A DNA stretch of 64,000 bases. Origin: Dyadobacter sp. 676 (GTDB lineage: Bacteria > Bacteroidota > Bacteroidia > Cytophagales > Spirosomataceae). The stretch is taken from contig NZ_CP159289.1 of NCBI RefSeq assembly GCF_040448675.1, positions 2,232,001 to 2,296,000 on the forward strand. Direction: 5' to 3'. A program made the translations under genes and the position numbers. Below the pieces are notes generated by a model. That model saw only the letters and a list, made by a program, of their open reading frames with translations, searched no databases and had not been told where the DNA came from. Of the stretch, positions 3,434 through 29,490 are shown one piece after another (within the stretch, counting starts at the first letter, position 1; every line of letters begins with the position of its first letter).

Positions 3434-4090
3434 ATGATCTCGAATCAGGAAAAAGTGCCGTATATCGTAGGGATAACCGGGGGGAGCGCGTCGGGAAAGA
3501 CGTATTTCATGAAGAACCTCATAGACGCTTTCGGGAAAGACGAAATCACGCGGATCTCGCAGGACAATTATTACAGGCCGATCCATGAAATTCCGCGGGA
3601 CGAAAACGGGGTGGAGAATTTCGACTTGCCGGAAACGATAGATCATCATCTTTTCGCCGAACATATTGCCGTTTTGAGGGCAGGCCGTTCTGTGCAACAA
3701 AAGGAATATACCTTCAACAACCCGCTGATCAAGCCCGAAATACTGGTTTTTGAGCCCAGGCCGATTATCATTGTGGAGGGGATTTTCGTTTTTTACTTCC
3801 CCGAGATAGCGCGGCTCATCGATTTGAAAATTTTTGTCGATGCCAAGGAGCATGTTAAAATAAAACGGCGGATTATTCGTGATAATAGTGAGCGCGGCTA
3901 CGATCTCGACGATGTACTGTACCGTTGGGAACATCACGTGGCCCCGACTTACGATAAATTTATACTTCCCCTGCGCGCGGAGGCGGATATGATCATCAAT
4001 AACAATTCGCGGTTCGATACAGGCTTGCAGGTGCTAATTGGCTTTTTGAAGGGGAAACTAGAAGAAAAAAACAATAGCCTTGCTCCGTGA
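3434..4090 (+). CDS. udk: Uridine kinase
   Basis: 218 residues, about the usual length of bacterial uridine kinases, which phosphorylate uridine and cytidine to UMP and CMP in pyrimidine salvage. A Walker A loop GGSASGKT lies at residues 16-23. It is followed by the DNYYRP substrate-side motif (about 44-49), the FDLPETIDH segment, and a basic lid KRRIIRDNSERG (about 139-150). The central IIIVEGIFVF strand is also family-typical. The start at 3434 lies a few codons before the first beta strand and suits the family. The gene lies 49 bases after PorZ on the same strand; a functional link is not evident. Confidence 0.92.
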   Translation: MISNQEKVPYIVGITGGSASGKTYFMKNLIDAFGKDEITRISQDNYYRPIHEIPRDENGVENFDLPETIDHHLFAEHIAVLRAGRSVQQKEYTFNNPLIKPEILVFEPRPIIIVEGIFVFYFPEIARLIDLKIFVDAKEHVKIKRRIIRDNSERGYDLDDVLYRWEHHVAPTYDKFILPLRAEADMIINNNSRFDTGLQVLIGFLKGKLEEKNNSLAP

Positions 4091-4244
4091 TAAGTCCACT
4101 GATCGCGACATTAATCTTTGGTGTAACACCTATTTTGATTATAATTGCGATTAATTTGGTACAATTTTTGTATCGCCTGTTATCAACACTCAAACGAATC
4201 CTTTCTTAAATACTAATCTTTAAATTCACTTAACTATCTCAACC

Positions 4245-4700
4245 ATGAAAAGATACCTATTTATGGCGCTTTTTGCCACGTTCTTCATTTCTTGCTCCGA
4301 TGACGATAAAGTTGACCCTGACTTGACCAAGGACTTTGTTGGCAACTGGAAGGGAGAGGTTAAGAAGGAAGTAGGGTATGAATACAGTTCAGATTGGCTG
4401 ATAAGCAGAGTAGACGACAAAACTGTAAAAATTGTTTCGACATACAAGTTGGTATCCACCGATCCTAAAATCCCGTCTTCCACCGAGGTTTCTAACATTA
4501 ACGACGTTATAATATCGAAGGCCAACGACAACACATTAACAATGACCACAACACAGGAGATAGCAATACCAGGCGACACCATTTTAGTCAAAGGAACCGG
4601 AGTCGTGTCAGGTAGATCGTTAACTGTGACTTCTACGGGAACTTCAAAGAAAACCGGCGTAGTAACAAAGCCTCCGGTTCAGAGATTCACAAAAGAATAG
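4245..4700 (+). CDS. Small lipoprotein, lipocalin-like
   Basis: 151 residues. The N-terminus is a short basic stretch and hydrophobic core ending in the lipobox FISC (Cys17), followed by SDDD. An acidic sequence after the lipid-anchored cysteine favours export to the outer membrane or surface in Bacteroidota. The mature part starts with FVGNWKGE, the usual opening strand of lipocalin-like domains of this phylum, then alternating beta strands. Function is unknown. It is followed 41 bases later by a second lipoprotein on the same strand, so the two may be co-transcribed. Confidence 0.7.
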   Translation: MKRYLFMALFATFFISCSDDDKVDPDLTKDFVGNWKGEVKKEVGYEYSSDWLISRVDDKTVKIVSTYKLVSTDPKIPSSTEVSNINDVIISKANDNTLTMTTTQEIAIPGDTILVKGTGVVSGRSLTVTSTGTSKKTGVVTKPPVQRFTKE

Positions 4701-4741
4701 AGAAATTATCGCATAGGCTAAAATCCTGTTATTAATTACTG

Positions 4742-5434
4742 ATGAAAAACACACTTTATATTCTGATTGTTATCGCAAGTCTTGCCGTGTCCTGCGATGA
4801 CGACGTTACTTCTCCGAAAAATGACTATGAGTATTTTCCCCTGGAAGTTGGCAGCTATACAGTATATGAAGTGAAAGAGGAAATTTATTCTGCCGGAAAG
4901 ACCGAACCGAAAACGTCTTCCTGGCAGGAAAAAGACCAGATCATCGATAAAACAGACGACGGCGATTCTGAATCATTCATTTTGGCCCGATTTACGCGAA
5001 GCACTGGCAGTGATTATTGGGTCAAAACCAAAGAGTTCAGAATCAACCGCACGCCGGATAAGATTCTTACCAGCATTGACTCGGAAACTTTTTTTTCCCT
5101 TATTTTTCCGGTTAGTGAGAGCGTACGATGGAACGGCAATGCGTATAATAACCGCGATAAGGAGGATTACTTTTATCAGGATATTAACCGGCCGTACTCT
5201 GAATCCAAACAGCGTTTTGATAACACCCTGACAGTCGTTGAGCGGATGGACTCGTCAATCATCAATCGATACACAGGAATCAAAAAGTATGCCTTAGGGG
5301 TGGGTTTAATTTATGACGATCAGGTGTCCTATGAATATTGCCAAACCCCTGAATGCCTCGAAAGCGACATCCGCGTTGTGGAATCGGGCACACATAGGAC
5401 AAGAAAAATCCTGGAATTTGGCACCAGTAAGTAA
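4742..5434 (+). CDS. Lipoprotein of unknown function
   Basis: 230 residues with a lipobox LAVSC (Cys18) followed by DDD. The mature region starts YFPLEVGSYTVYEV, a pattern seen in many Bacteroidota lipoproteins whose chain is a series of beta strands. There are two cysteines late in the protein (CQTPEC) that could form a disulfide. No enzyme motif is visible. The gene ends 80 bases before the candidate promoter of the lasso precursor, so it is probably a separate transcription unit. Confidence 0.65.
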   Translation: MKNTLYILIVIASLAVSCDDDVTSPKNDYEYFPLEVGSYTVYEVKEEIYSAGKTEPKTSSWQEKDQIIDKTDDGDSESFILARFTRSTGSDYWVKTKEFRINRTPDKILTSIDSETFFSLIFPVSESVRWNGNAYNNRDKEDYFYQDINRPYSESKQRFDNTLTVVERMDSSIINRYTGIKKYALGVGLIYDDQVSYEYCQTPECLESDIRVVESGTHRTRKILEFGTSK

Positions 5435-5514
5435 TTGGACTCCCCCGCCAAATGTCCGCGATGGTATAACATGACGTTTATATTGTGGAATCATCACATT
5501 TATTTCACATAATC

Positions 5515-5545
5515 TTTGCTAATTTGGAAAATTAGAGTACTTTTA
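5515..5545 (+). promoter_or_regulatory. Candidate Bacteroidetes promoter of the lasso precursor
   Basis: TTTG at 5515-5518, a 19-base spacer, then TACTTTTA at 5538-5545, seven of eight positions of the TAnnTTTG -7 element. It ends 35 bases before the precursor ATG, giving a 5' leader of roughly 30 bases. The surrounding 120 bases are AT-rich. Match by eye only. Confidence 0.45.
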
Positions 5546-5580
5546 CGGCGGATACTATTTTAACTCATAAAACACTGTAT

Positions 5581-5742
5581 ATGAAAACTGTTTCGATGCA
5601 CTCTACACAGACAAAAAGGACTTATCGTCAACCAACTCTGAATAAATTCGGAAGCGTAAGCGTGCTGACCAAAGGTAAATTAGGGAGCGCTTTCGACGGC
5701 CCAGGTCAACCTGTTAAGTTTGACGGACTTGGAGAGTCGTAG
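5581..5742 (+). CDS. Lasso peptide precursor
   Basis: 53 codons, ATG to TAG. The predicted leader is residues 1-31 and carries the complete lasso leader pattern YxxPxLxxxGxxxxxTxG: Tyr15, Pro18, Leu20, Gly24, Thr30 and Gly32. Thr30 is the penultimate leader residue required by lasso maturation enzymes. The predicted core is residues 32-53 (22 residues): it starts GKLGSAFD and ends DGLGES. Gly1 of the core and Asp8 (residue 39) are correctly spaced for an 8-member isopeptide macrolactam. The tail GPGQPVKF then supplies candidate plug residues (Gln, Lys, Phe). There is no cysteine, so it would be a class II lasso peptide. The next gene on the strand is a lasso-cyclase homologue. The motif is read directly; ring formation and core boundary are inference. 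Confidence 0.85.
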   Translation: MKTVSMHSTQTKRTYRQPTLNKFGSVSVLTKGKLGSAFDGPGQPVKFDGLGES

Positions 5743-5802
5743 TATTCTACCTCTTTCAGATTAACCGAATTTATTAAAGTTGTTAATTGAAGGTTTCATT
5801 AG

Positions 5803-5853
5803 CTATCATACTGCTGTACCGAAAGTGGGCAAGCAGTATGATAGTATTTTTTT
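5803..5853 (+). terminator. Intrinsic terminator or attenuator between lasso precursor and cyclase
   Basis: A perfect 13-bp inverted repeat, 5803-5815 with 5832-5844 (arm CTATCATACTGCT), has a 16-base loop and is followed within two bases by seven T (5847-5853). It lies 60 bases after the precursor stop. Hairpins between the precursor and downstream enzyme genes are known from other lasso clusters and favour high precursor to enzyme ratios. The best ATG for the cyclase (5838) lies in the right arm of the stem, so the structure could also limit cyclase translation. Confidence 0.75.
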
Positions 5854-7740
5854 CTTGATGGTGGATTTATCGGTGAACACGGTGTAAATCGACTAGCAGG
5901 AAATTTTCCCACATACCTCATACATGCTCCTGATCATGAGGGGAATATTCGGAATCGCTCGAATTTGCGCGGAGAGGAACTTCGTCATCTCTCTGTACAA
6001 CTCTCTTCGACGCCCGATCTTCACATCGGAGTTTGGTATGAGGAAGATACAAAACGCCTCCTGTTGTCTCGGGATGTCTTCGGTGTTATCCCCCTATTCT
6101 ACTCTTATTTACCGGGCAAATACTTCGCATTTTCCACGGACCTCAAACATTTGATCCGAAACGAGGAGGTGTCGCGGCATAATGGCATCCATGTCGGGAA
6201 AATAGTATCACATTGTTCTTCCTATCACCCCGGCTTTATTCATGATGCCTCATCGACTTTCTTTTCCTCTATTCAGTCGGTGTTGCCGGGCCATATTTTA
6301 ACAGTAGATGCGATCTCATGCGATCTCAGGCGCTATGTCAACTTTAAGCCAGAGAAATGGTCTCATTTGAAAACGCCTGGCGACTATACGGAGGCCTTAC
6401 GCAGCAAATTTAGCAGAGCGGTCGGGCAATGTATCCCAAACACACTTGAAAACATCGGATCCCATTTGAGTGGTGGGCTTGACTCCTCGTCCGTAAGCTC
6501 TATGGCAAGGCACCTTTGGAGTGAAAGAGCACTTCACACTTTCCATATCGTATCTCAAAGCCGTTCTTCCAACGAAACTGCATATGCCGAGGCCGTAGCT
6601 GGTTCTATCGGTTCATTTCACCACCTGGTTTATCCTCCTTCTAACGACTTGGAGGCTCTCGAGTTAAGTACACAATTATACGGGCAACCGGAGGCCAACT
6701 TCCTATCTCCTGCCTCCAACCTCGAGACAATATCAAGCGCGGCCCAGCATGGCTGCAGAATATTACTTAATGGCTTTGGCGGAGACTCTGTGATAGGCAG
6801 TGGTAGCGAGCTCGTTGTGCAGGCTTTTGATGCACAAGATTGGAAAAACTATGAGGAGTTACTCAAAAAAAGGGTCAAATATTTCGCTCTTGCCGATCAA
6901 TACCCTGATTGGAATTCTTTGTCGGACAGCAAAAAATTTGAGCTCGTTCTTCAAAATTCACTCTACAGGCGTTTCTCAACAAGCCGGGACAGATCCCCTA
7001 AGGCACTATTTCGCCTTTACCAATCACTTCCCGGCAACCTTAAGCCCTCGCCTTCATACTTCTTGAACAGATACATAAAAAGCCTGATTTTCCGAGTTAG
7101 GCATCGTATCAACACAAGAAATAGCCAGGCTTCGATTCTTCATCCTGAAATTGAAGATCTGTATGGCAGGCAGGATTATCTATCGACTAGTTTTCCGACT
7201 GCTTTGAGAGGTGACCTTCCAGCGAGTTATCAGGAGTTATTTCAGGATGTTTTTCATCCACATGTTATCAAGACTCAGGAAGAATTTTTCATTCTGGGTA
7301 ACCATTACGGCGTAAGTTGCCGCTCCCCATTTATGGATCACGAGCTTTTTGAGCTGAACCTGTCAATACCAGATATCATAAAGTTTGGTGACGGAATCGG
7401 TCGTGCGCATTTACGTGAAGCAATGAAAGGGATTCTAACGGACAAAGTCAGGCTGCGGCATACCAAAGCCACATTAAGTTCGTCGGACGGCCACAACATG
7501 ACGATTCGCCTGTATGACCAGGCAAAACATTATCTTTTTGACAATCAGGAAGTATGGCAATATCTTGATCGTCAGAAATTCGGGGAGCAAATCAAGATCG
7601 CGCTTAATTCCAGAATTCCGCATTGGCAAAAAACCAATGTATATTTTCTCATCACGAGAGGCATTTCATTTGCCGTATGGCTTGACTGGTTGAAGAAGCA
7701 TTCAATGAATGCTTCTTCAACCCAAATGCTATCTGAGTAA
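5838..7740 (+). CDS. Lasso cyclase (asparagine synthetase B-like macrolactam synthetase), probable one-base error near start
   Basis: Catalyses ATP-dependent adenylation of the core Asp side chain and closure onto the Gly1 amine. The PP-loop SGGLDSSS is at 6469-6492, GFGGDS at 6772-6789 and the CRSPFMD segment at about 7318-7338. The C-terminal part has the LREAMKG, VRLRHTK signature of lasso cyclases. The N-terminal Cys nucleophile of true asparagine synthetase is absent, which fits a cyclase. The frame is open from 5845 but has no ATG in it; the first in-frame alternative start is TTG 5965 (591 residues). Dropping one T from the T7 run 5847-5853 joins ATG 5838 to the frame and gives 633 residues starting MIVFFLDGG. 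The last 12 bases overlap the convergent PorU2-like gene. Confidence 0.8.
7690..7720 (-). terminator. Perfect hairpin in the convergent gene overlap
   Basis: A perfect 13-bp stem (7690-7702 with 7708-7720, arm TTGAAGAAGCATT) has a 5-base loop. It lies 8 bases beyond the stop codon of the minus-strand PorU2-like gene and inside the last codons of the lasso cyclase. There is no T-tract on either side, so it may act as an mRNA 3' end stabiliser rather than a strong intrinsic terminator. Confidence 0.4.
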
Positions 7741-10700
7741 CGCCAATTTACCAGATACACTCTTCTCTTCGCCCCCCTGGCTAATCATATTGACCTTATA
7801 GTAATACAAACCACTTGTATTTTGTGCAGGTTGCCAATACCATTCATTTACACCGGCTCTCGGTTTGTCAAGATGCTCTTTATGAACCAGTACGCCGCGC
7901 TGGTCGTAAATTGCCCAATCGATTCGGACAATAGGGTTACTTGCAGGTAATGTAGTTTCAAAACGAGCATAAGACGAAGCCGGATTAGGGCTGACAACAA
8001 GCTTCAAGACCTCGCTGTCGTCGGCTATGCGAAAACGGATTCTATAAGGTGCTGCACTAATATTACCGGCATCGTCGCTTCCCGTAACCAATAGTTCGTA
8101 AACTCCCGGCTCTGTCAGCGATTCTATCCAGTTAACTAATAACGAACGCTCCGTCAACGCCTCCATTTTGAGCAATTTTCCGGAAGAATAAGCCAGACGG
8201 GTAAAATCACAGGAATTGTCTTCACACGTCTTCAAAAAAACACTCACACGAGAAGTATCTGCCGAAAGAAAACGATCATCTTCCAAACCAATAACGATAT
8301 TCGACCCCGGCTGAACAATTTCATCGTTCCTGATCATTCTACCATTGAACTTGACAGTTAAAGTTGGAGCGACTACATCCTTAATACTGCCCTGAGGATA
8401 GATAGATACGTTTTTCGCAATTTCCCAGTCGACCAACAATTCCGTTTTGTTATTGTTCTTGTTAAGTTCCTTAATTGTATTGGCCGGATCGAGCCTTACT
8501 TCAATTTTCTCTATCGGGTTAGCCGAGGTGGTCATTACCGTAATGGTATCATGGTATGCAAACCCGGAAACGGTATCCTTTACCTGCGTTTGTCCACCTT
8601 TCGAAAAATAGGTGATTTCGATGGGTAGCTCTCCGTTCGGTACATATCTGCCCAGATTATCAACGCGTACGCTCAGTTTAATCTTCGTAGAAGCTCCGAT
8701 CGTCTTATCCGGCGATTCTGAATAAATCCTAATCCCTTCGTCAGGGTCAACAGTGTAATCGGGATTTGCTACTGAAATCACTTTGAGGGCCGGATCACCC
8801 TGAAGCACCGATTGGTGAATATTCGCAACATTGTATATCCCCGGGTCCTCCTTAACGATTTTCGATGCGATTGCCTTTTGAATGTCACCGATGGGTAGAT
8901 TGTACGTAAATGGGTCCGAAAACATCGCTTCATAGAGCTTAGTTAAGTAGCCGGACGACGGACTCACAAAGCTTTCGAAAGAGTTGGCAATGATCGCTAT
9001 CGCCCCTCTCTTAGCTGCTAAGAGCCAATCCATCGACAAAGGATACCTGTCGTTTGCACCTGGATTAGGGTTGAACCGGGCGCTAAAAATGTTCCCGACT
9101 CCACAACCATTAAAGTACATCATCGGATACATGCCTTGATTGCTATAACCTCTATCGGCATCGGTGATGTAGCCCATGTCCAGGTCTGTAACAGTTGTAG
9201 ATCCATGACCGAAATAGGTGATTAGCCCAACCCCTTCATTTACCTCCGGTGTAATATTGACCGTTTCTACCTCCCCGATCGCTTGCTGCTTCACAAATGG
9301 CTTTACGGAACCCCCCAACGATTCCACCGGATACCTTCGGCTCCAGTGTAGCAAGCAACTGCTTCAATTGCGTGATCTCGGAAACCGATTTCCCACCATT
9401 CAAATGCAATACATTCTTTCTCCAACCATAACTACCTGTGGCGTTATGTTCATATTCCTTAACCTTTTCCAGATAGTCATGTATATTTTGATTAGTCACA
9501 GCACTAAGCCTCCCAACCGGAATCGCAGGCACATCCCTAGCGGTGCCTCCCAACCCCTCCACAAGAAGAATGTCGGAGGCAGGAAAGCCGATCGTAGGAA
9601 CTTCATCCGGCAACTCTCTAACCATTCGCTCATTATGGGTTATAGATTTACCAATCAGATACAAATACTTGTTCTTCTTTCCGTCGGAAATCATATAATC
9701 AACAAAATTTCTGATCGCCACCGGACTCGGCTCCCCGTAGTTGAATTGATTATAAATATCTTTGATGTTGGCTACAAGGGTCGTAAATCCTCCCCCTTCA
9801 GACGTAGAACGGTAAGCCGCATATTCTTTTGAGCCCGCGAGAAGATTTTCACTTGTGATGATGATATAATTGGCATTTAAGGGATATTTCGTACTGAAGT
9901 TCGCCACGCTGACTTTCGCTTTCTGAATTGTCACCGATTCGCTGGTGACCAACAGTCTTGTATCTTTGCCGGCAGATCTGGGCACCATAATTTCCGTTGC
10001 GTTTCCTTCAATGATCACTGGCTTATCTACATCTGTTATATCCATAACAGTACTATTCGCGGGAGCATTTGTGACGTTTAAGCGCGTATAGGTGTCGGAC
10101 GTCTTGCGAAGAAAAAACTCGCTCGTGCTCTTACCCTTCATGTCTGTTTGTTGAGGATACTTTACGGAATAGTAAGTGAGTGAATACCCATCAATAGCAT
10201 TCGTACCTACCGCTTTCAAATTAAGTATTCCTTTCCCTTGAGCATCGAGGTCATTGCTTTCCAATGGAAAAGAGTATTGTGAGCCGCCAAATCCACTGTT
10301 AGGCAGAGCGTAAACCAGTCGAAGCGATTGCTCGTCTTTTCCAACCCGGATCTCAATGTTTTTTGCTCCCGGGCTCCTGCCATGCACCAGTAGCTTCACT
10401 ATGGGTTTATCAACACCGTTATTAACGTAATTTGTAAGCTGGATAGCAAAAGAACTGGCCTTACCTTCCATGGACGCCTTCCCAGTTCGGCTGGCGCCTA
10501 TTTCAAAAAAACTATTGAAAAAAGATGGCCTGAGATATGAATTGGTGCTAAGCGAATATTCATTTTTATAAGTAACCAGATTTTCGGCAATATGGAAGCC
10601 CGCCGGAACATCCTGTGCGGTAACTGCTTTAGTACTTCGGACTGCTCTCAATCCTGCTGTATCACCGACGGTTAAAAAATAGGCGCCTTCATCCGAATAC

Positions 10701-11050
10701 ATACTCCAATATGGATTTATCCGTGAACTTGTCGGCCGGTAAAGCAATGAGTCACTTCCGCCGTCGTTCGGCACAGCATAGAACACAACTTCCTTATTAT
10801 CTGTAGAAATAATGGCTACCTGTTTACCACGATGCCACAGCTGAATCCTGGTAACATCATTGACCGGAAAATCTGCGGGTAAAACGGAAAATGGAAGTTT
10901 GTGTATTCCGGCCTGGGTAATCCCTATTCTCACATAAGGCTTTCCGTAAACAATCCAGTTGTTCCGGTACGGCGGCCCCCATTGTGCGGAAACACTCAAA
11001 ACCTTAAAACTCAGCAGAACAGCGAGGCAAAAAGTAAATCTGAAACTCAT
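7729..11050 (-). CDS. porU2: PorU2-like C25 cysteine peptidase with T9SS sorting domain (frame broken at 9311-9316)
   Basis: Joined length about 1106 residues. A signal peptide (MSFRFTFCLAVLLSF, start 11050) precedes the PorU2-type N-terminus with VRIGITQAGIHKL and LWHRGKQVAII. The gingipain-like catalytic part has the His motif YFGHGS (about 9201-9218) and the Cys motif FNGCGVG (about 9095-9115). After it come CARDB-like beta domains and a C-terminal sorting domain (VVSPNPASSY to the end). It is related to the T9SS sortase PorU but carries its own sorting signal, so it is more likely a secreted or alternative sortase. Frames 9236-11080 and 7729-9354 join if one G of the coding-strand G6 run is dropped, restoring IVGGSVKPF. 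Start 11050 is preferred over 11080 because it gives a cleaner signal peptide. Confidence 0.75.
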
Positions 11051-11115
11051 AGTTATCAAACAAAAAAGGCTGACATACACGAATTATCATGAATGTCAGC
11101 CGGCATATTTATGTC

Positions 11116-14107
11116 CTATTTCTTAACTACTTTTTTATGATACACATCACCGTTTTCAGTGTGTACTTCGAGGATGTATTCACCGGCCGCCAGTTGCGAA
11201 AGATTCAGCTTGAGACCAGTCTGGTCTTTCAGCACAGGTTGTCCTGCTATGTTAACCAGGTTCCAGCTCCTGATCTTTACCGGAGCATTGAGCGCAATTT
11301 CGGCTACATCGGCGATCGGATTAGGCGAAACAACGAAAAACTTCGACTCTTCACGTCTTACGGATACGATAGTCGAGTAAGTACTTTTACCATCAACAAT
11401 GTTACCATCAACTACCGTACTGTTATCGACCTGCTTAAGACGATAATAGCTTACGCCTGTCAGCGGCTTAGAATCGTAGAATGTGTAACTTGTTTCAGTT
11501 TCCGTTGTACCCTTGCCTTCTACTCTGCCGATTTCTTCAAACAGTTTTCCGTTGTAGCTTCTCTCGACAATGAAATGGCTGTTATTTTTCTCAGACGCAG
11601 TTTTCCAATCAACGCGTACCTTTTCATTTTCTGTCTTGGCGCCAAATGAAATCAATTTAACCGGCAATGCACCGTCCGTGATCAGGATTCTCAAAGCGGG
11701 ATCCCCCTGCAAGAGCACCTGATGCACATTGGCCCTGTCTGCGTCATAAAAGGACGCTACGCGTGAATTCTGTGCCACATTATAGGTATATGCTTTTTGT
11801 AGCTTGGTCAACCGGGCAACTTCCTTTGAGGATGTTACCAATGGATTTTCTATTTACGTCGGTTTCCATAAAGATCTGCGCATACAGCTTATCCAGGTAT
11901 TCATTGGACGTACTGGCGTACGCATCCCAGGTATTTCCAAATACAGCCACCGCACCTTTGTTCGGGGCCAATAACCAATCAAGCGACATGGGCCGAACCG
12001 AGGAAGCCGGCGTTGTTCCGAACAAACCGTTACGCCCGCTAAACACGTTATTAACGCCACAACCATTGTAAAACAGAACCGGAAAGTTATTAGGGTTATT
12101 ATAGCCCTTGGCTGGATCACTTACGTAACCGGCGTTGTAATCCGTTTTATCGACACCCCCATGTCCAAAATAGGTTACCATTCCGACCCCGGCGCCATTC
12201 AGCTCAGCTGCAAAATTCATTTCGATCACGTCATCACTGGCAACCGTCTTCAACTTTGGAATGATATTCCCTGAAAAAGGGTTGCTGGTAACGTCGACTG
12301 AAATCGCGTTAAGATAGTCGGCGAATTGGTTAATTTCCGTTGAAGATTTACCACCGTTCATATGAATGACATTCTTTCGCCATCCAAGGTCGGTTTGACT
12401 CTCGTACTTTTGCACCTTCGCGAGGTAATCCAGTACTTGCTGGTTCGAAATTGCCGCCACACGTCCCACAGCCACCGCCGGCACGTCGTCTGGCGCCCCT
12501 GCCAAACCATCCGTAAGCAGCAAATCCGATCCGGGATAACCCACCGTAGGAACTTCATCTGGAATTTCCCTCGTCATCCTTTCTGGAAATGTGTTTGATC
12601 TTCCCAACAAAAGCAGGAATTTATCATCTTTCTTGCCATCCGAGATCATAAAATCAACAAATCTTCTTATTGCCACAGGGCTTGGTTCCCCATAGTTGAA
12701 CTGATTATATGCATCGCGGATGCTAATTACCAACGGCTTGTACTTTTTACCCGGACTAGCATCCCGACGATAGGTTGCATATGCCTCGGCAGAGCTCGTC
12801 ATAGTATTTGAACATACAATAAGATAATCGTAGCTGGCAGGATTGATCTCTTTAAATGTCGCATTTGAAATCTTATTCGCTGCGACAGTAGTTATCTGGT
12901 TGCTAACCAAGAGATTGATTTTCTGCCCATTCCGGTCAATCAGAAGTGCCGACGGATTTCCAGGGATTATTCTCGGCACATCCGGATTGGTAATGTCGTA
13001 GACCTGAACACCTGCTGGAGTATTTGTGATTGAAACGGATGATTGAGTACCGGGACCAACCGCCGGCAATTCGAATTCGTATGAGTTAAGCCCCTGCATA
13101 TTAAGCGCCTGATCATACACAAGTGTAAAATAGGAGACAGAATAACCGCTTCCCTCGTATCCTACCTGAGTCGATTTAAATCCAAGCGTACCAACTCCGT
13201 TGGCATCGAAGTCGCTATCCTGCAAGTCGAAATTAAAATCATAATCATTTAATTCAGAAATGCTGATGGTTCCGACAGATCTCAATGTCGCAGCGGTTTT
13301 ACCCACATAAATCTCCGCAGTCGATGAGCCTAACCTACCTTTCAGATGAACCGACATTTTCTTTGGAGCTGCTCCAACCGGAAATTTGATTTGAAAACTG
13401 AAAGGTTCCGGTTGATAAGAGGATGGGAAGATTATCGAAGATTTCGGATTCAAAGTCTGGATATTGTTCCCGAGGAAATATCCCATGAGCGATGTGCCTG
13501 TATATTGCTTTCCTTCTTCAAAATAACTGTTATAAGTGGATGGGCGGTAGTAAGTCTGGGAACTGTGTGAATATTCATTCTTATAAATCCTTACGTCAGT
13601 TTTCACGTGTGACTGCACTGCAACCGGAGAGGGGTTTGATGAAGGTGTAGCGGTTATCGCCCTATTACCGTTCGCCGCTGGATTAATCGTAAGAAAATAA
13701 GAACTCTCATCCGAATAGATGCTGAAATACGGGTTTTTACGACTTGTACTAAGCCTGTAAAGAAGGGCATCGGAGGCGCCGTCGTTGGGTACTCCATAGA
13801 AAAGAATTTCATTGGCATCCGCCTTGATAATGCTCACCTGCGTGCCACGATGCCACAGTTCCAGCCTATTTTTATCTGCATCTTTGAATGCCTGCGGTAA
13901 ATCAGCGATATTGACTTTGTGAATCCCTTTTGCGGTTACGCCTATTCTAACCCAAGGTTGAGAATATTTACCGGCAAGCCACTCATTTCCATGGGAACCG
14001 CTCCACTTTTGAGCAATGCCGTTCGTGCTTGCGATAAAGACAACGACGACCAGCGCCTTAAAAATCCTCAGTAAACTCAGTGTGTTTAAAGTAGAAAATG
14101 TTTTCAT
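11116..14107 (-). CDS. porU2: Second PorU2-like C25 cysteine peptidase with T9SS sorting domain (frame broken at 11846-11849)
   Basis: Joined length 996 residues; paralogue of the gene 65 bases downstream. The N-terminus has a signal peptide, then WVRIGVTAKGIHKV and LELWHRGTQVSII. The catalytic His motif YFGHGG is at about 12160-12177 and the Cys motif YNGCGVN at about 12052-12072. After the catalytic domain there is a VDWKTASEKNNSHF-type fibronectin-like stretch, common before sorting domains, and a T9SS domain opening FVVSPNPIAD and ending in YHKKVVKK. One extra base in the coding-strand A4 run (11846-11849) separates the 11780-14107 frame from the 11116-11841 frame. Removing it restores VNRNPLVTSSKEVARL. 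Probably co-transcribed with the first copy. Confidence 0.75.
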
Positions 14108-18883: not shown

Positions 18884-21800
18884 TCATTTCACGCCCAGCA
18901 GGTAGTCCAGCAGCGCGTAGAAATCCTTTTCGGGAATGATATTCCGGAACTGGTCGGGCATTAACGTGTACCTGGAAGCCCTGTATTCTTTCATATCCCC
19001 CTTGGCCACCGAAAATTCCCGCCCGCCCATATCCGCGAACACCATTGTTTCACCTTCCGTCCTGCGGTAAAGGCCTGTAAGGGTCTGGTTATTTTTCAAT
19101 GTAATATTATAAGTACGAAATGCCTCAGTTATATTCCTGTTGGGGTCAAGGATTTTTTGGGTTAATGCCTTGTGGCCCCAGTTTCCGATGCCGTCGAGCT
19201 GCGGCCCCACAAGCCCTCCCGAGCCCTGGATCTGATGACAGCCGCTACAATTCTGCACAAAAACCACCTTGCCTGCATCCGAGAATGTGGTAGCCGGCTT
19301 AAAATTCGCAATGCGCGCGTCGATTAGTTTCTGACGCTCTGCACGTTCGTTCGCACCCGCGGCGAGCAATTGCTCCATCTGCGCCCGCTGACTCGCATCC
19401 GCATTGTGGGTAAGCCGCTCCTGAACGGCGATCTCGCTTGCAATATCAGTTCCCAGTTCCTCATCCCGGAAAGCATTCAGCAAATAGCCTATTCCCTCCG
19501 AGGTATTCGCCAGCACCGAAGCAATAGCGATCTGAAGGTTTCTGGCGCCGCTTGCCAGTTGCCTTTTTAAAGTTTCATAAACGGAAGGCGAAGCAGCCTG
19601 TCCCATTGTAACCGCCAGCTTCTCGCGCAATACCGGCAACTCGGCGGGATCATTGAACACGTCCGCCAGCACGTCTACATTGCCTTTTGAATCGATATTC
19701 ATCAATGCCCCGGCAGCCGCATTCCGCACGGTAAAGTCCATCCATTTTGCCCGCAAAACAGCCCGCAGCGCCGGTTGCAACGCACCGATGCGGTATTCGC
19801 CCGCGATTTCCGCTGCCGCTATTCTTTGTTCGGAAATAACGGAAGGTCCCTTTTCGGGAATGCTTACCACCGCTGGTTCAAATTGCCCGATGCCGACAGA
19901 ACCAGTCCGGGAACTGTCCACAACTTCAATATAGCCCATTTGACCTGCATAGCCCGACAAATCGAACGTCGCTTTGCGGATAAGATCTTTGTATTCCATA
20001 GGTGCCGTATGATTGCTACGGTACGCCCCAACTACTTTTTCACTATCGGCCAACCTGATTTTCACTGAATTTTTCGACACGCCCGTTCGCTCCGGCCTGT
20101 TATGCACATCATTATCGAAAACATTCATTTTCAATGTTTCCGGTAACCTGAAAGGCACCGAATACAACGCCGACTGCGGTCCATAGCCTCCTTTTTCGCT
20201 TAATATGATGCGGAAAGGTGGCATGACATCCACCAGAAACCGCTCCGAAACCATCCACGAATTCACCGGATCGGCGTTCCTGGCGGCTTTTCTGATTTTC
20301 CAGGTTTCCGTTTCCTCCGAAATATCGTTTAAGAACTTCCCGGCCAACCGCTGCCCCCAGGCAACCATTTTCGGGCTGGGCAATGCACCGCTCTGCCGGA
20401 TACCAGCCTGGATGGTCCGGTACAGCGAAAGTTGCTTATCGGGCTCACTTCCGAATTTCGCATCGATCAGATCGATCACTTTTTCGATCTGATACGGCGC
20501 TGCCAGGCGGCCGATGTATTCAAGATTATTCAAAAGGTCTTTTGGGGCCGGATCGTGCGTCAGCGTGTAGTGAAGAACAAATGATGCTCCGGCCGGCGAT
20601 TCGACATCAAGCAATGCCCTGTTAAGCAGTTCCAGCTGACGATCGTTCCAATGCATCGCCGGAAGCCGCCACATCACGCTGGTATTTTTAAGGTTGTTCC
20701 GAATGCCCAGCAGGGCCGTGTAACGAAGGTGACTGTCTGTCTCCGGTGTTTTTTCATACAAATCCATCAATAACGGCAGGTTTTCGGGTCTCGGGAAATG
20801 CATCAGGACCTCCGCTGCGGTCCGTTGGATAAACGGGTCATTACTTTTCAATGCCGAGGTAACACGGCGGTAATGCGCCTCGGAAAGGGCACCGCGTTCG
20901 TTCAGAATGCGCAATGCGTGGATCTTTATGACCTGCTCGCGATGCTCCAGCGCATTGCCCAGCAGGCCGTCGTCAAGCGCTGCAAGCCGGTGCAATATCC
21001 ATAATGCGTGCACATAGGAGGTCGGATCGGGAGCTTTGGCAGTTAAAACAGCCCTTACCGGACCAACCGCCTTTTCCTTCCACGTATCTACCAGCCTGTC
21101 GGCCACTTTCAACCGTGTGTTCAGTTGCGGATGTTTCAATCCTTCCAATAACTGATCGATCGTAGCCGTCGCCCAGTCGGTCACCGGGAGATTGTGGTGC
21201 GGTTCGGCACCTTTATATGTCACCTTCCAGATCCGGCCGCTTACCCTGTCGCGACCGGGGTGGTTCAAAGCGACTTCGTAATGTCCGATGATCCGGTTGT
21301 AAAAATCGGCGATATATAGGGCGCCATCCGGCCCTACCTTGATATCGACCGGCCTGAACCACGGGTCTTTGCTTACCAGAAACGGCTCTTCTTTCTTCGA
21401 CGACGGCGTAGAACCATTGAAAGTAACTGTATTACGGTCGATACGGCAGGTGACCACATCGCCGGTAAAGAAACTATTCCGGTACTTTGCGGGATACTGC
21501 ATTCCTGTGTAATAAACCAGCCCTGCCAGTGCGGTAGAGCCCAGGTCATAGGTCATCATAGCAGGTGCGAACCCAAGCCCGACGGGCGCCTTTTTTGCCA
21601 AAATGCGGGTACTCTCCACCAAAAATCAGCTGTGTAATAGGCTTTGTATGGCAATCGACCGAATACAAATATCCTCTTTCGTCATAAGCATAGCCAAACG
21701 GGTTCACACGCCCGAACGTAGTCTGTTCCACATGACTGCCATCCATTTTTACTCTGAAAGTATTTCCCGAATTCATCCTGACTGAATCGCCATCCGTTCC

Positions 21801-22457
21801 CGCCACAGCCGAAACATTGGAAAACCCGTGACAGGCATGCAACCAGCCGTCGTACCCGCGCACGAGGTTATTAACCATGCCGTGCGTATCCTTATGCCCG
21901 AAACCGCCTAACAGGATTTCCCGGCTGTCGGCCTTACCGTCGTTATCGATGTCTTTGAAATGGTAAAGATTGGGAATGCTGTATGCGATCGCACCGTCGG
22001 CTACGGGCATAATACCGATCGGAATATTGAGGTTGTCATCGAAATGCGTGAAAGTATCTGCCCGACCGTCGCCGTTCTTGTCTTCGAGGATTGTAATGCG
22101 GTCTTTTCCGTCGCCTTCGCCGGCCGCCATGGGGTATTCCGACGATTGTGTCACCCACAACCGGCCGCGGTCGTCGAATTCCATGTTCATCGGCTTGGTG
22201 ATGTCAGGCTCTGAGGCGAAAAGCGTTACCTCGAAACCTTCCGGCAAAATAAAGCTGAGACGCTCTTCTTCCGGTGTTTTGAAACCTGCCGTACGGATAT
22301 GCTCTGCATAAATGTCTGTGCCGGTCTGCCGGGGCACATTCGCGGCGCTAACATTCGGGCCGGACTTTTTAGGAGGTTTACAACTTTGCGAAGGAAACAG
22401 CAGAGAGGCCGTCAGCAATGACAGACCAATTCTGAAAGTAATTCGGAATGGCGGCAT
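18884..22457 (-). CDS. PVC-type haem-binding dehydrogenase-like lipoprotein with HEAT repeats and cytochrome c (frame broken at 21591-21596)
   Basis: Joined length about 1190 residues. Start 22457 gives MPPFRITFRIGLSLL and a lipobox near FPSQSC. The N-terminal part is the membrane-bound dehydrogenase propeller (LPEGFEVTLFASEP, WVTQSSEYP, NGDGRADTF, PFGYAYDERGYLYSVD). A long HEAT-type helical repeat region and a galactose-binding-like stretch follow. The C-terminus is the Planctomycete-type haem domain with CSGCH, the GPQLDGIG segment and LMPDQF as the distal methionine region. It is presumed to oxidise a sugar or derivative and pass electrons to the respiratory chain. The two frames (21546-22529 and 18884-21622) join as HFGKKAPVGLGFAP when one A of the coding A6 run is removed. 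Confidence 0.8.
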
Positions 22458-22560
22458 ACGATCGGAAAGGGAAAAGCAGGGTTGAGGATTTCGTTGAATA
22501 GTATTGGTCAATAAACTCGCGCCGGGCACTATTTTACTATGATAGTGGGTATTATAATTG

Positions 22561-22617: not shown

Positions 22618-23614
22618 TCAATATTTTACAAAATGTGTGCGTTCGGATGATCCGTCTAGATACTCGATTTTTAAAATGTAGTTGCCGGGTTTTAAGCTTG
22701 TCAGCTGCATATGTTTTTCTCCCGAAATTTCCGCTGAACGACGCTCCGCGATCACATTGCCACTCGCATTCATGACACTCATTTTGGCTACCTTCGACCA
22801 GTCCTTAACATCCATTTCAAGCCGGTCGGCAGCCGGGTTCGGAAACACCGACAATGCCTTTCCGTCCCACGAAACCTTCCTGAGCTGACTGAATGCGAAA
22901 GTCCCGTCGCGATCGACCATTTTCAGACGGTAATAATTGTTTCCGGCAATGGGCGCATTGTCCGAATAACCATAGTTATTCTGCACCTTGCTATCTCCCG
23001 CCGACTGAACACGGCCAAGAATTTTCCAGTCTTTTGCGTTGTGGCTGCGTTGGATTTCAAAAAAAGTCGCTGTTCGTTTCCGAAGACGTCTTCCAGCACA
23101 GCTGCACATTCCTTCCCTCCTTCTCCGCCTCGAATCCGACGAGCGTCACCGGCAATACGCTTTGCGCGTTCACGAGCGTGAGCAATCTGATATCCAGATC
23201 GGCTACATCCTTGGACACTAGATGCTTCCCCAAGTCGCGGGCACTACCCGACATTGTCACAAATCCCGACTCATCCGACCACGAATTCGCCAATTCCAAC
23301 AGCGACTCCGCGTTCCCATTCAACTCCGCCGGATCATAAATCACGCCTACATTACCGCTGAAATTGATGGGATTGTTGAAAACATACTTCTTCTTAATAC
23401 TCGCATTAGGATTTCCCGGCACAGCGGTGTGCTCTACCATGAGGGAATAGTTGTTGCTCAGGTTGAGGTCTTCGATGGGGTTCAACACCAGGCTGTCTAC
23501 TGAAAAGGTGGTTCCGATTTTGACGTACAGGCTGTTGCCTGTTACAAACTGCGCCCTGACCGCGAGGCTTGTCACCGTCAGGAGCATGCATGATAACAAA
23601 GTCTTGCAATTCAT
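22618..23614 (-). CDS. T9SS-secreted protein (frame broken at 23059-23065)
   Basis: Joined length about 331 residues. The signal peptide MNCKTLLSCMLLTVTSLAVRA precedes a beta-rich domain. Then comes the VTLVGFEAEKEGRNVQLCWK type of linker domain that very often precedes sorting domains in Cytophagales, and a T9SS domain starting LSVFPNPAADRLEM and ending in THFVKY. The frames 23057-23614 and 22618-23109 fuse as NSDFFEIQRSHN when one T of the coding T7 run is removed. It lies 28 bases after the third S74 paralogue and has the terminator of the set behind it, so it is probably co-expressed with those genes. Confidence 0.75.
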
Positions 23615-28811: not shown

Positions 28812-29490
28812 CGGTGCGCTGCACCTTCCGTGGCGCGTATATACTTTGTCACGATCTTTCGGTCTACAAATATTGCGGTGCGCGGCACCTTTCGTGGCGC
28901 GTGTATACTTTGTCACGATCTTTCGATCTACAAATATTGCGGTGCGCGGCACCTTTCGTGGCGCGTGTATACTTTGTCACGATCTTTCGATCTACAAATG
29001 TTGCGGTGCGCTGCACCTTTCGTGGCGCGTATATACCTTGTCACGATCTTTCGGTCTACAAATATTGCGGTGCGCGGCACCTTTCGTGGCGCGTGTATAC
29101 TTTGTCACGATCTTTCGGTCTACAAATATTGCGGTGCGCGGCACCTTTGGTGGCGCGTGTATACTTTGTCACGATCTTTCGGTCTACAAATATTGCGGTG
29201 CGCGGCACCTTTGGTGGCGCGTGTATACTTTGTCACGATCTTTCGGTCTACAAATATTGCGGTGCGCGGCACCTTTCGTGGCGTGTGTATACTTTGTCAC
29301 GATCTTTCGATCTACAAATGTTGCGGTGCGCTGCACCTTTCGTGGCGTGTGTATACTTTGTCACGATCTTTCGGTCTACAAATATTGCGGTGCACGGCAC
29401 CTTCCGTGGCGCGTATATACTTTGTCACGATCTTTCGGTCTACAAATATTGCGGTGCGCGGCACCTCCTATGGGCGCGCATATGCCCTGC
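28812..29490. repeat. Tandem repeat array, 64-bp unit, about 10.5 copies
   Basis: Copies begin at 28812, 28876, 28940, 29004, 29068, 29132, 29196, 29260, 29324, 29388 and 29452 (the last one partial and degenerate). Each unit starts CGGTGCGCGGCACC, passes through GTGTATACTTTGTCACGATC and ends TCTACAAATATTG. Copies differ at only a few positions: CGCGGC or CGCTGC or CACGGC in the loop, TTTCGT or TTCCGT or TTTGGT, GCGTG or GCGTA or GTGTG. The GGTGC...GCACC arms stay intact in the complete copies. Because 64 is not a multiple of three, all three forward frames stay open, giving spurious frames of about 240-260 codons. Confidence 0.95.

Follow-up and report, generated by a model that had tools for sequence, protein, structure and literature searches.

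Does a short, precursor-like gene that stands beside a cyclase gene, at a locus from which leader-peptidase genes are absent, belong to a working lasso-peptide pathway, and where would its remaining enzymes come from? The question is raised by a 64-kb stretch of Dyadobacter DNA (referred to here as the window; positions 2,232,001–2,296,000 of a single 7,284,078-base contig), in which a 53-codon open reading frame, A, had been proposed as the precursor gene of a lasso peptide.

A lasso precursor gene in front of a cyclase gene

The precursor gene and its parts are:
5581..5742, plus strand: predicted lasso precursor gene A (ATG start, 53 aa, TAG stop), with homologues in the genus
5581..5673, plus strand: leader of A, 31 aa, from an alignment of 21 precursors
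5674..5739, plus strand: predicted core of A, GKLGSAFDGPGQPVKFDGLGES, with Thr at −2 and Asp8; cleavage site and ring as predicted

The leader (MKTVSMHSTQTKRTYRQPTLNKFGSVSVLTK) contains the YxxPxL motif and Thr at position −2 of the lasso type. The core comprises 22 aa, begins with Gly1 and ends in Ser; the residue 1 amine and the Asp/Glu at positions 7–9 of lasso cores are represented by Gly1 and Asp8, which would form a Gly1–Asp8 ring, and the bulky tail residues are Lys15, Phe16, and Leu19. For the predicted lasso peptide we calculate a neutral mass of 2144.054 ([M+H]+ 2145.061, [M+2H]2+ 1073.034), and 2224.020 for a phosphorylated form. The sequence letters and the ORF list thus bear out the complete leader pattern and the Gly1–Asp8 22-residue core of the original prediction. 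The pattern YxxPxLxxxGxxxxxTxG with Asp or Glu at core position 8 has a single occurrence when all six frames of the window are read, and does not turn up in any of 150 first-order Markov randomisations of it. Against NF033521, A scores 17.8 bits, just under the cut-off of 19, and the precursor profile has its best PDB match in the leader of TbiA, from a structure with TbiB1 (E 0.61, not significant). The precursor reading holds, because related precursors adjoin cyclase homologues elsewhere, upstream of them in 47 of 47 genus loci read, and because in the window's ORF list 5581–5742 is overlapped by no second ORF of at least 40 aa. Judged by its sequence, the 53-codon ORF is a genuine lasso-peptide precursor gene.

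A protein search with A returned five further proteins with 79–87% identity over 79–100% of the query. The 47 loci, the window's own included, comprise all 30 that were read upstream of the best cyclase match and all 17 further genomes found by pattern (12 via a strict and 5 via a looser one); the precursor frame of G013 is interrupted upstream of the motif. With a profile built from 21 precursors, at least one precursor was detected in each of the 48 genus genomes. The locus of the 48th, G032, was not read because its cyclase match sits at a contig end, and here the profile located the precursor beside the cyclase. Positions M1, Y15, P18, L20, G24, V26, and T30 are invariant in the 21 aligned precursors, which were picked for diversity, the invariance of P, L, G, and T being partly due to search patterns that required them; the first precursor of G027, outside this alignment, has Ile in place of V26. 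Comparison of the core across relatives, as had been suggested, shows that the leader is kept and the tail variable, tails differing widely between species. We compared 49 genus cores, from 47 genomes and with two additional cores of G027. Gly1 is the first residue in 41 of them, and position 8 is acidic in 41; the remainder have A, K, E, L, or N as first residue, or the acid at 7 or 9, and one lacks an acid at 7–9. Ser or Thr is present at positions 4–7 in all 49 cores.

Additional copies occur in some genomes. G027 harbors two further precursor–cyclase pairs (L162 and L163), and a fourth precursor of this genome (L219:4286–4441) stands alone, with no significant relative of the cyclase or of the maturation genes B, K, and N described below in the 8 kb read. 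In G037 and G044, a precursor profile hit lies near the 3′ end of the second cyclase, and G022 and G029 each have a second precursor profile hit no more than ~3 kb from a second cyclase match of lower score.

The cyclase gene C

5780..7740, plus strand: cyclase gene C, start at TTG 5780 by comparison (LLIEGF...), frame change at 5847–5853, then open to 7740; N-terminal glutaminase half eroded

The cyclase homologue claimed to lie directly downstream of A is indeed there: C is asparagine-synthetase-like, as lasso cyclases are, and matches PF00733 at 119 bits (cut-off 21). Against NF033535, the model for lasso cyclases, it scores 197 bits (E 6e-58), under the model cut-off of 525, which is reached in 0 of 222 family genomes. 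The motif S-G-G-x-D-S-S is invariant in 20 aligned cyclases, and a structure model built from these (mean pLDDT 83, first 50 residues poorly predicted) resembles hydroxyamidotransferase, carbapenam and beta-lactam synthetases, and asparagine synthetases. The start at TTG 5965 given in the ORF list was rejected, since relatives point to TTG 5780; a motif of the form [LIVMFA][LIVMF].[EQ]G is found in frame 22–53 nt after A in 32 of 49 loci and opens C at TTG 5780. Only positions 78–122, or fewer, of the 123 positions of the glutaminase domain PF13537 match Dyadobacter cyclases, with 26.7 bits for C of the window (cut-off 25) and 20.0–23.4 bits in five others. The cyclases of the linked clusters described below match more of the domain (positions 25–123 at 65 bits in G051; 59–123 at 57 bits in L090).

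A promoter-like site before A and a terminator-like hairpin inside C

Three elements flank the precursor gene:
5515..5545, plus strand: Bacteroidota-type promoter-like site, TTTG-N19-TAnnTTTA, ending 35 nt before the start of A
5802..5845, plus strand: terminator-like hairpin with a 14-bp stem, ~−25 kcal/mol, inside the 5′ end of C
5847..5853, plus strand: T7 run behind the hairpin, read from the sequence letters; site of the frame change in the assembly

Sites of the form TTTG-N17-22-TAnnTTT[GA], a type that we take to be the Bacteroidota promoter consensus, were found in the 150 nt before A at 44 of 49 loci, compared with 1 of 196 control blocks. Behind A, positions 5802–5853 combine a stable hairpin with a following T-run, as in intrinsic terminators. 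We scanned the 280 nt after A for a single hairpin of −18 kcal/mol or lower ending at a T-run and detected one in 37 of 49 loci, versus 1 of 196 blocks in the body of C, 0 of 98 upstream blocks, and 1 of 294 shuffles; no probability is attached to these counts, because related species are not independent. Twelve loci stay under the threshold (G039, G026, G019, G035, G016, G013, G031, G008, G002, G022, G042, and G027c), some of them with long stems of weaker energy or with wider loops. Stem length alone is a weaker test (at least 13 bp in 38/49 regions after A, 0/196 blocks in C, 1/98 upstream blocks, 8/196 shuffles, and 10/456 window blocks), and energy and T-run were therefore used. When the T-run is not required, hairpins of −15 or lower are found in 48 of 49 regions after A, but 40 of 49 control blocks within C contain them as well. 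At −18 and likewise without this requirement, T5 or longer follows on the 3′ side in 20 of 47 hairpins after A and A5 or longer precedes on the 5′ side in 5 of 47, compared with neither in any of 40 control hairpins in C. The T-run is what distinguishes hairpins after A from those in C. Throughout the window, such a hairpin accompanies 21 of 770 T-runs, the one after A included, and 7 of these 21 are located inside a same-strand ORF.

The hairpin lies within the C frame behind an in-frame start codon in 34 of 37 loci, the exceptions being G000 (frame change), G034, and G025. The segment preceding the hairpin has a lower pN than pS in 9 of 11 close pairs, some of which share species; the other two pairs, a tie and a reversal, cover six codons or fewer. 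This segment of C thus looks translated, as judged from substitution patterns. Compensatory changes were analyzed in two clades that align without gaps, with five and four sequences (9 loci), chosen by eye. Both sides changed in 5 of 21 and 5 of 17 pairs, respectively, compared with 0–1 in slid controls, and 96% and 100% of pairing cells are paired. Shuffles reached the number of changed pairs in 22 and 2 of 500 cases and the covariation score in 0 and 2 of 500. An Rfam search of window positions 4000–8500 yielded nothing above gathering score, and one sub-threshold snoRNA match was taken as chance.

We read the hairpin after A as an attenuator that would keep the cyclase scarce. It might instead be a quasi-palindrome that repair or inversion at the DNA level maintains, or an element for processing or stability of the A mRNA, a possible but rather doubtful alternative. 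G036 (L008) and G045 (L010) share a near-identical stem ~45–100 nt after A with the loop exactly reverse-complemented, a tiny inversion inside coding sequence that points to DNA-level processes too. Place and sequence of the hairpin vary between clades, and hairpins without a T-run are common inside C. The strand asymmetry of the T-runs (20/47 against 5/47, and 0/40 in controls) nevertheless argues for a terminator, as do clusters of relatives in which all lasso genes lie together: the gap between A and the next gene, B1, contains a T-run hairpin of −18 or lower in 10 of 15 such loci, two have weaker ones and three none there. The hairpin therefore follows A, not C.

The frame of C

At the T-run 5847–5853, C of the window changes frame in the assembly. 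The A–C pair might therefore be a decaying remnant with a cyclase pseudogene, making no lasso peptide, and the unlinked maturation genes could be taken in the same sense. We consider decay unlikely. In 45 of 49 loci an open C frame begins no more than 73 nt from A (exceptions G000, G025, G031, and G034), and downstream in C pN is well under pS in 11 of 11 close pairs. One stop inside the cyclase match was flagged in G003, G017, G023, G026, and G031. Indel errors in the window's assembly are further suggested by one of the two neighbors of the A–C pair:
4742..5434, plus strand: lipoprotein-like gene, neighbor of C, 30% identical to a gene beside C in G051 (Spirosoma)
7729..11080, minus strand: PorU2-type T9SS sortase, neighbor of C, two ORFs here; 36% identical to a protein beside C in G051

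The two PorU2 ORFs each match one part of NF052324. At the same place, G033 has a single PorU2 ORF of 1114 aa, to one end of which the first window ORF is 80% identical. The genome of Dyadobacter sp. 676 scores 95.3% complete, with mostly 99% or more in the genus (G025 91, G032 81), a value that fits indel errors. The frame change in C is probably a sequencing or assembly error.

Overlapping ORFs in different frames that resemble split genes are present at 7729–11080, 11116–14107, 18884–22529, and 22618–23614. The first split is seen with the PorU2 model and the relative, the second is suggested by a cut-short PorU2 match, and the last two were judged by eye. Two PorU2-type sortase genes stand in a row beside the lasso locus (7729–14107). 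Farther along, a tandem array (28812–29466) consists of ~ten 64-base units, 95% alike, in which three overlapping frames read repeated peptides.

Maturation genes at a distant locus

The leader-binding (RRE) protein B1 and the leader peptidase B2 of lasso pathways are both encoded in the genome. PF13471 (B2) and PF05402 (B1) have one hit each at E 0.001, at positions 1,545,857–1,546,506, which is 692 kb from the cyclase in the 7.28 Mb genome, so that A, B, and C do not form the canonical single cluster. The genes of this locus are:
L004, in one row: B1 (88 aa), B2 (146 aa), HprK-related kinase K (304 aa, P-loop GTPGAGKST), NTP_transf_5 protein N (393 aa)

B2 scores 87 bits against NF033537 (cut-off 33). 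B1 scores 68 bits against PF05402 (cut-off 23) and 66.8 bits against the lasso-specific NF033536, under its cut-off of 80, and resembles TbiB1 (5V1U) with E 4e-10. K matches HprK_rel_A partially (37.9 bits, E 1e-9, under the cut-off of 200); at the thresholds applied, B2 and the kinase matched no solved structure.

B2 is present in 48 of 48 genus genomes, G007 having a weak second hit. It is flanked by B1, K, and an N-like gene in all 29 B loci compared, N being only 28–36% identical in nine of these, where it may not be the same gene. A scan of 1.5 kb on either side of 42 B loci, 40 from the genus, detected no precursor-like ORF. A distance of 67 kb or more separates B2 from the best cyclase in 47 of the 48 genus genomes; G032 cannot be judged. 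Both lie on a shared contig, at least 559 kb apart, in 20 genomes; distances to contig ends give lower bounds of 67–578 kb in 17; and in 10 the cyclase alone is at least 71 kb from its contig end. Cyclase matches below 66 bits, probably other asparagine-synthetase-like genes, are omitted from this count. G029 has a second cyclase match of lower score (81 bits), at a distance of 361 kb from B2. Among ten large contigs examined, five have a B2–cyclase distance of 8.7–9.9% of the contig. G027 combines four precursors and three cyclases with one B2.

Given this distribution, the lasso pathway most likely works in trans. That A and C work with another protease or none, B1-B2-K-N serving something else, is very unlikely: such independence would fit two loci that are apart in 47 of 48 genomes, but the B loci lack a precursor, B1 and B2 have single hits in the genome and B2 co-occurs with the precursor in 48 of 48, and the same genes lie together in Spirosoma.

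Linked clusters in Spirosoma and other relatives

In Spirosoma and its kin the genes stand together, with A-B1-B2-(K)-N convergent with C. By a hand count among the matches listed, at least 20 of 27 Spirosoma genomes with B2 have a cyclase within 10 kb of it, probably of a more distant type in three of these (G238, G241, and G254). Also among the matches listed, seven of the 27 show no nearby cyclase; separation therefore occurred there too. Thirteen family genomes outside the genus were sampled; B2 is present in five, and these same five have the best match to the window cyclase (at least 87.9 bits; 56.2 or less, or none, in the other eight). A broader cyclase model at E 1e-30 matches at least 146 of 222 genomes, versus 114 with B2, and separates less cleanly because other asparagine-synthetase-like proteins are also caught. 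A contig scan with a one-protein query gave no relative; relatives were found with an alignment query.

A was found in 15 of 21 distinct linked loci read (L188, L195–L214). The kinase gene is present in nine of the 15 (L196, L197, L204, L205, L207, L208, L210, L212, and L213) and has no match in six (L188, L198, L200, L202, L206, and L209). Ser or Thr at core position 6 goes with the kinase (8/9 versus 1/6, Fisher 0.011, relatedness ignored), a lead to a candidate phosphorylation site in these linked loci.

Comparison with known lasso systems

The Dyadobacter genes resemble TbiA/TbiB1 pathways (5V1U/5V1V) in the YxxPxL...G...T(−2) leader, the Gly1–Asp8 spacing, the RRE protein B1, the transglutaminase-like peptidase B2, and the asparagine-synthetase-like cyclase C. 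Unlike in those pathways, the genes occupy two distant loci, the cyclase lacks most of its glutaminase half and hosts a hairpin, and in most genus precursors an HSTQTKK block precedes the canonical leader motif. Paeninodin-type lasso clusters carry a kinase and a nucleotidyltransferase, associated with a rule of a C-terminal Ser. Dyadobacter likewise has an HprK-related kinase and an NTP_transf_5 protein beside B1-B2, and the window core ends in Ser. Since only 9 of 49 genus cores do so, this rule cannot explain the kinase genus-wide, and the C-terminal Ser was rejected as its genus-wide target. The linked Spirosoma clusters (L090, S. spitsbergense; L188, which is G051) share related A, B1, B2, N, and C, with K in most loci read, and G051 also shares the lipoprotein-like and PorU2-type neighbors of C. 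They differ in that all genes are together with A in front of B1, the hairpin is intergenic, the acid is one residue earlier (D7 if Thr is −2), and the glutaminase domain is fuller.

A probable split pathway with a proposed attenuator of the cyclase

We consider it likely that the A–C operon makes a lasso peptide, that the unlinked B1-B2-K-N genes act in trans, and that the hairpin inside the ORF limits C. The short operon would run from its own promoter through A and the terminator in the ORF to C. B1 from the distant operon would bind the leader, B2 would cut after Lys31, and C would activate Asp8 and close the ring on Gly1; K and N may modify the product. Most transcripts would stop at the hairpin and supply precursor, which is used once per product and would be in excess, and the few that read through would yield a little cyclase as catalyst. 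As the hairpin lies behind the C start, a ribosome following the polymerase could block its formation, and ribosomes on the first C codons would in this way keep it open and raise readthrough.

Extended to the genus, one unlinked B1-B2-K-N module would serve one to four scattered precursors in trans across Dyadobacter, with a terminator in the translated 5′ end of C tuning A–C pairs and translation from the C start setting the amount of cyclase; here we see the chances as even. Counting against the overall reading are the scores for NF033535, NF033536, and NF033521, all under curated cut-offs, and the C frame of the window; in addition, no exporter gene stood out among the ORFs around the two loci. 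A real frame change bypassed by transcriptional or translational slippage is hardly credible: its position coincides exactly with a T7 run that follows a strong hairpin, but the closest relatives, G033 and G028, are in frame there and another gene of the assembly is broken likewise.

A is, by its sequence, the gene of a further lasso peptide; the stable gene split and the in-frame hairpin set it apart from the systems compared above. Lasso genome mining usually seeks genes side by side, and split pathways would therefore be missed or called incomplete. The 48 species provide a natural precursor set, with a conserved leader, a variable tail, and a single strong B2 hit in each genome, so that leader specificity and processing in trans can be tested directly. 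A terminator inside an ORF that differs in place and sequence by clade would show RNA structure constraining coding sequence, and would be a simple way to set the substrate-to-enzyme ratio.
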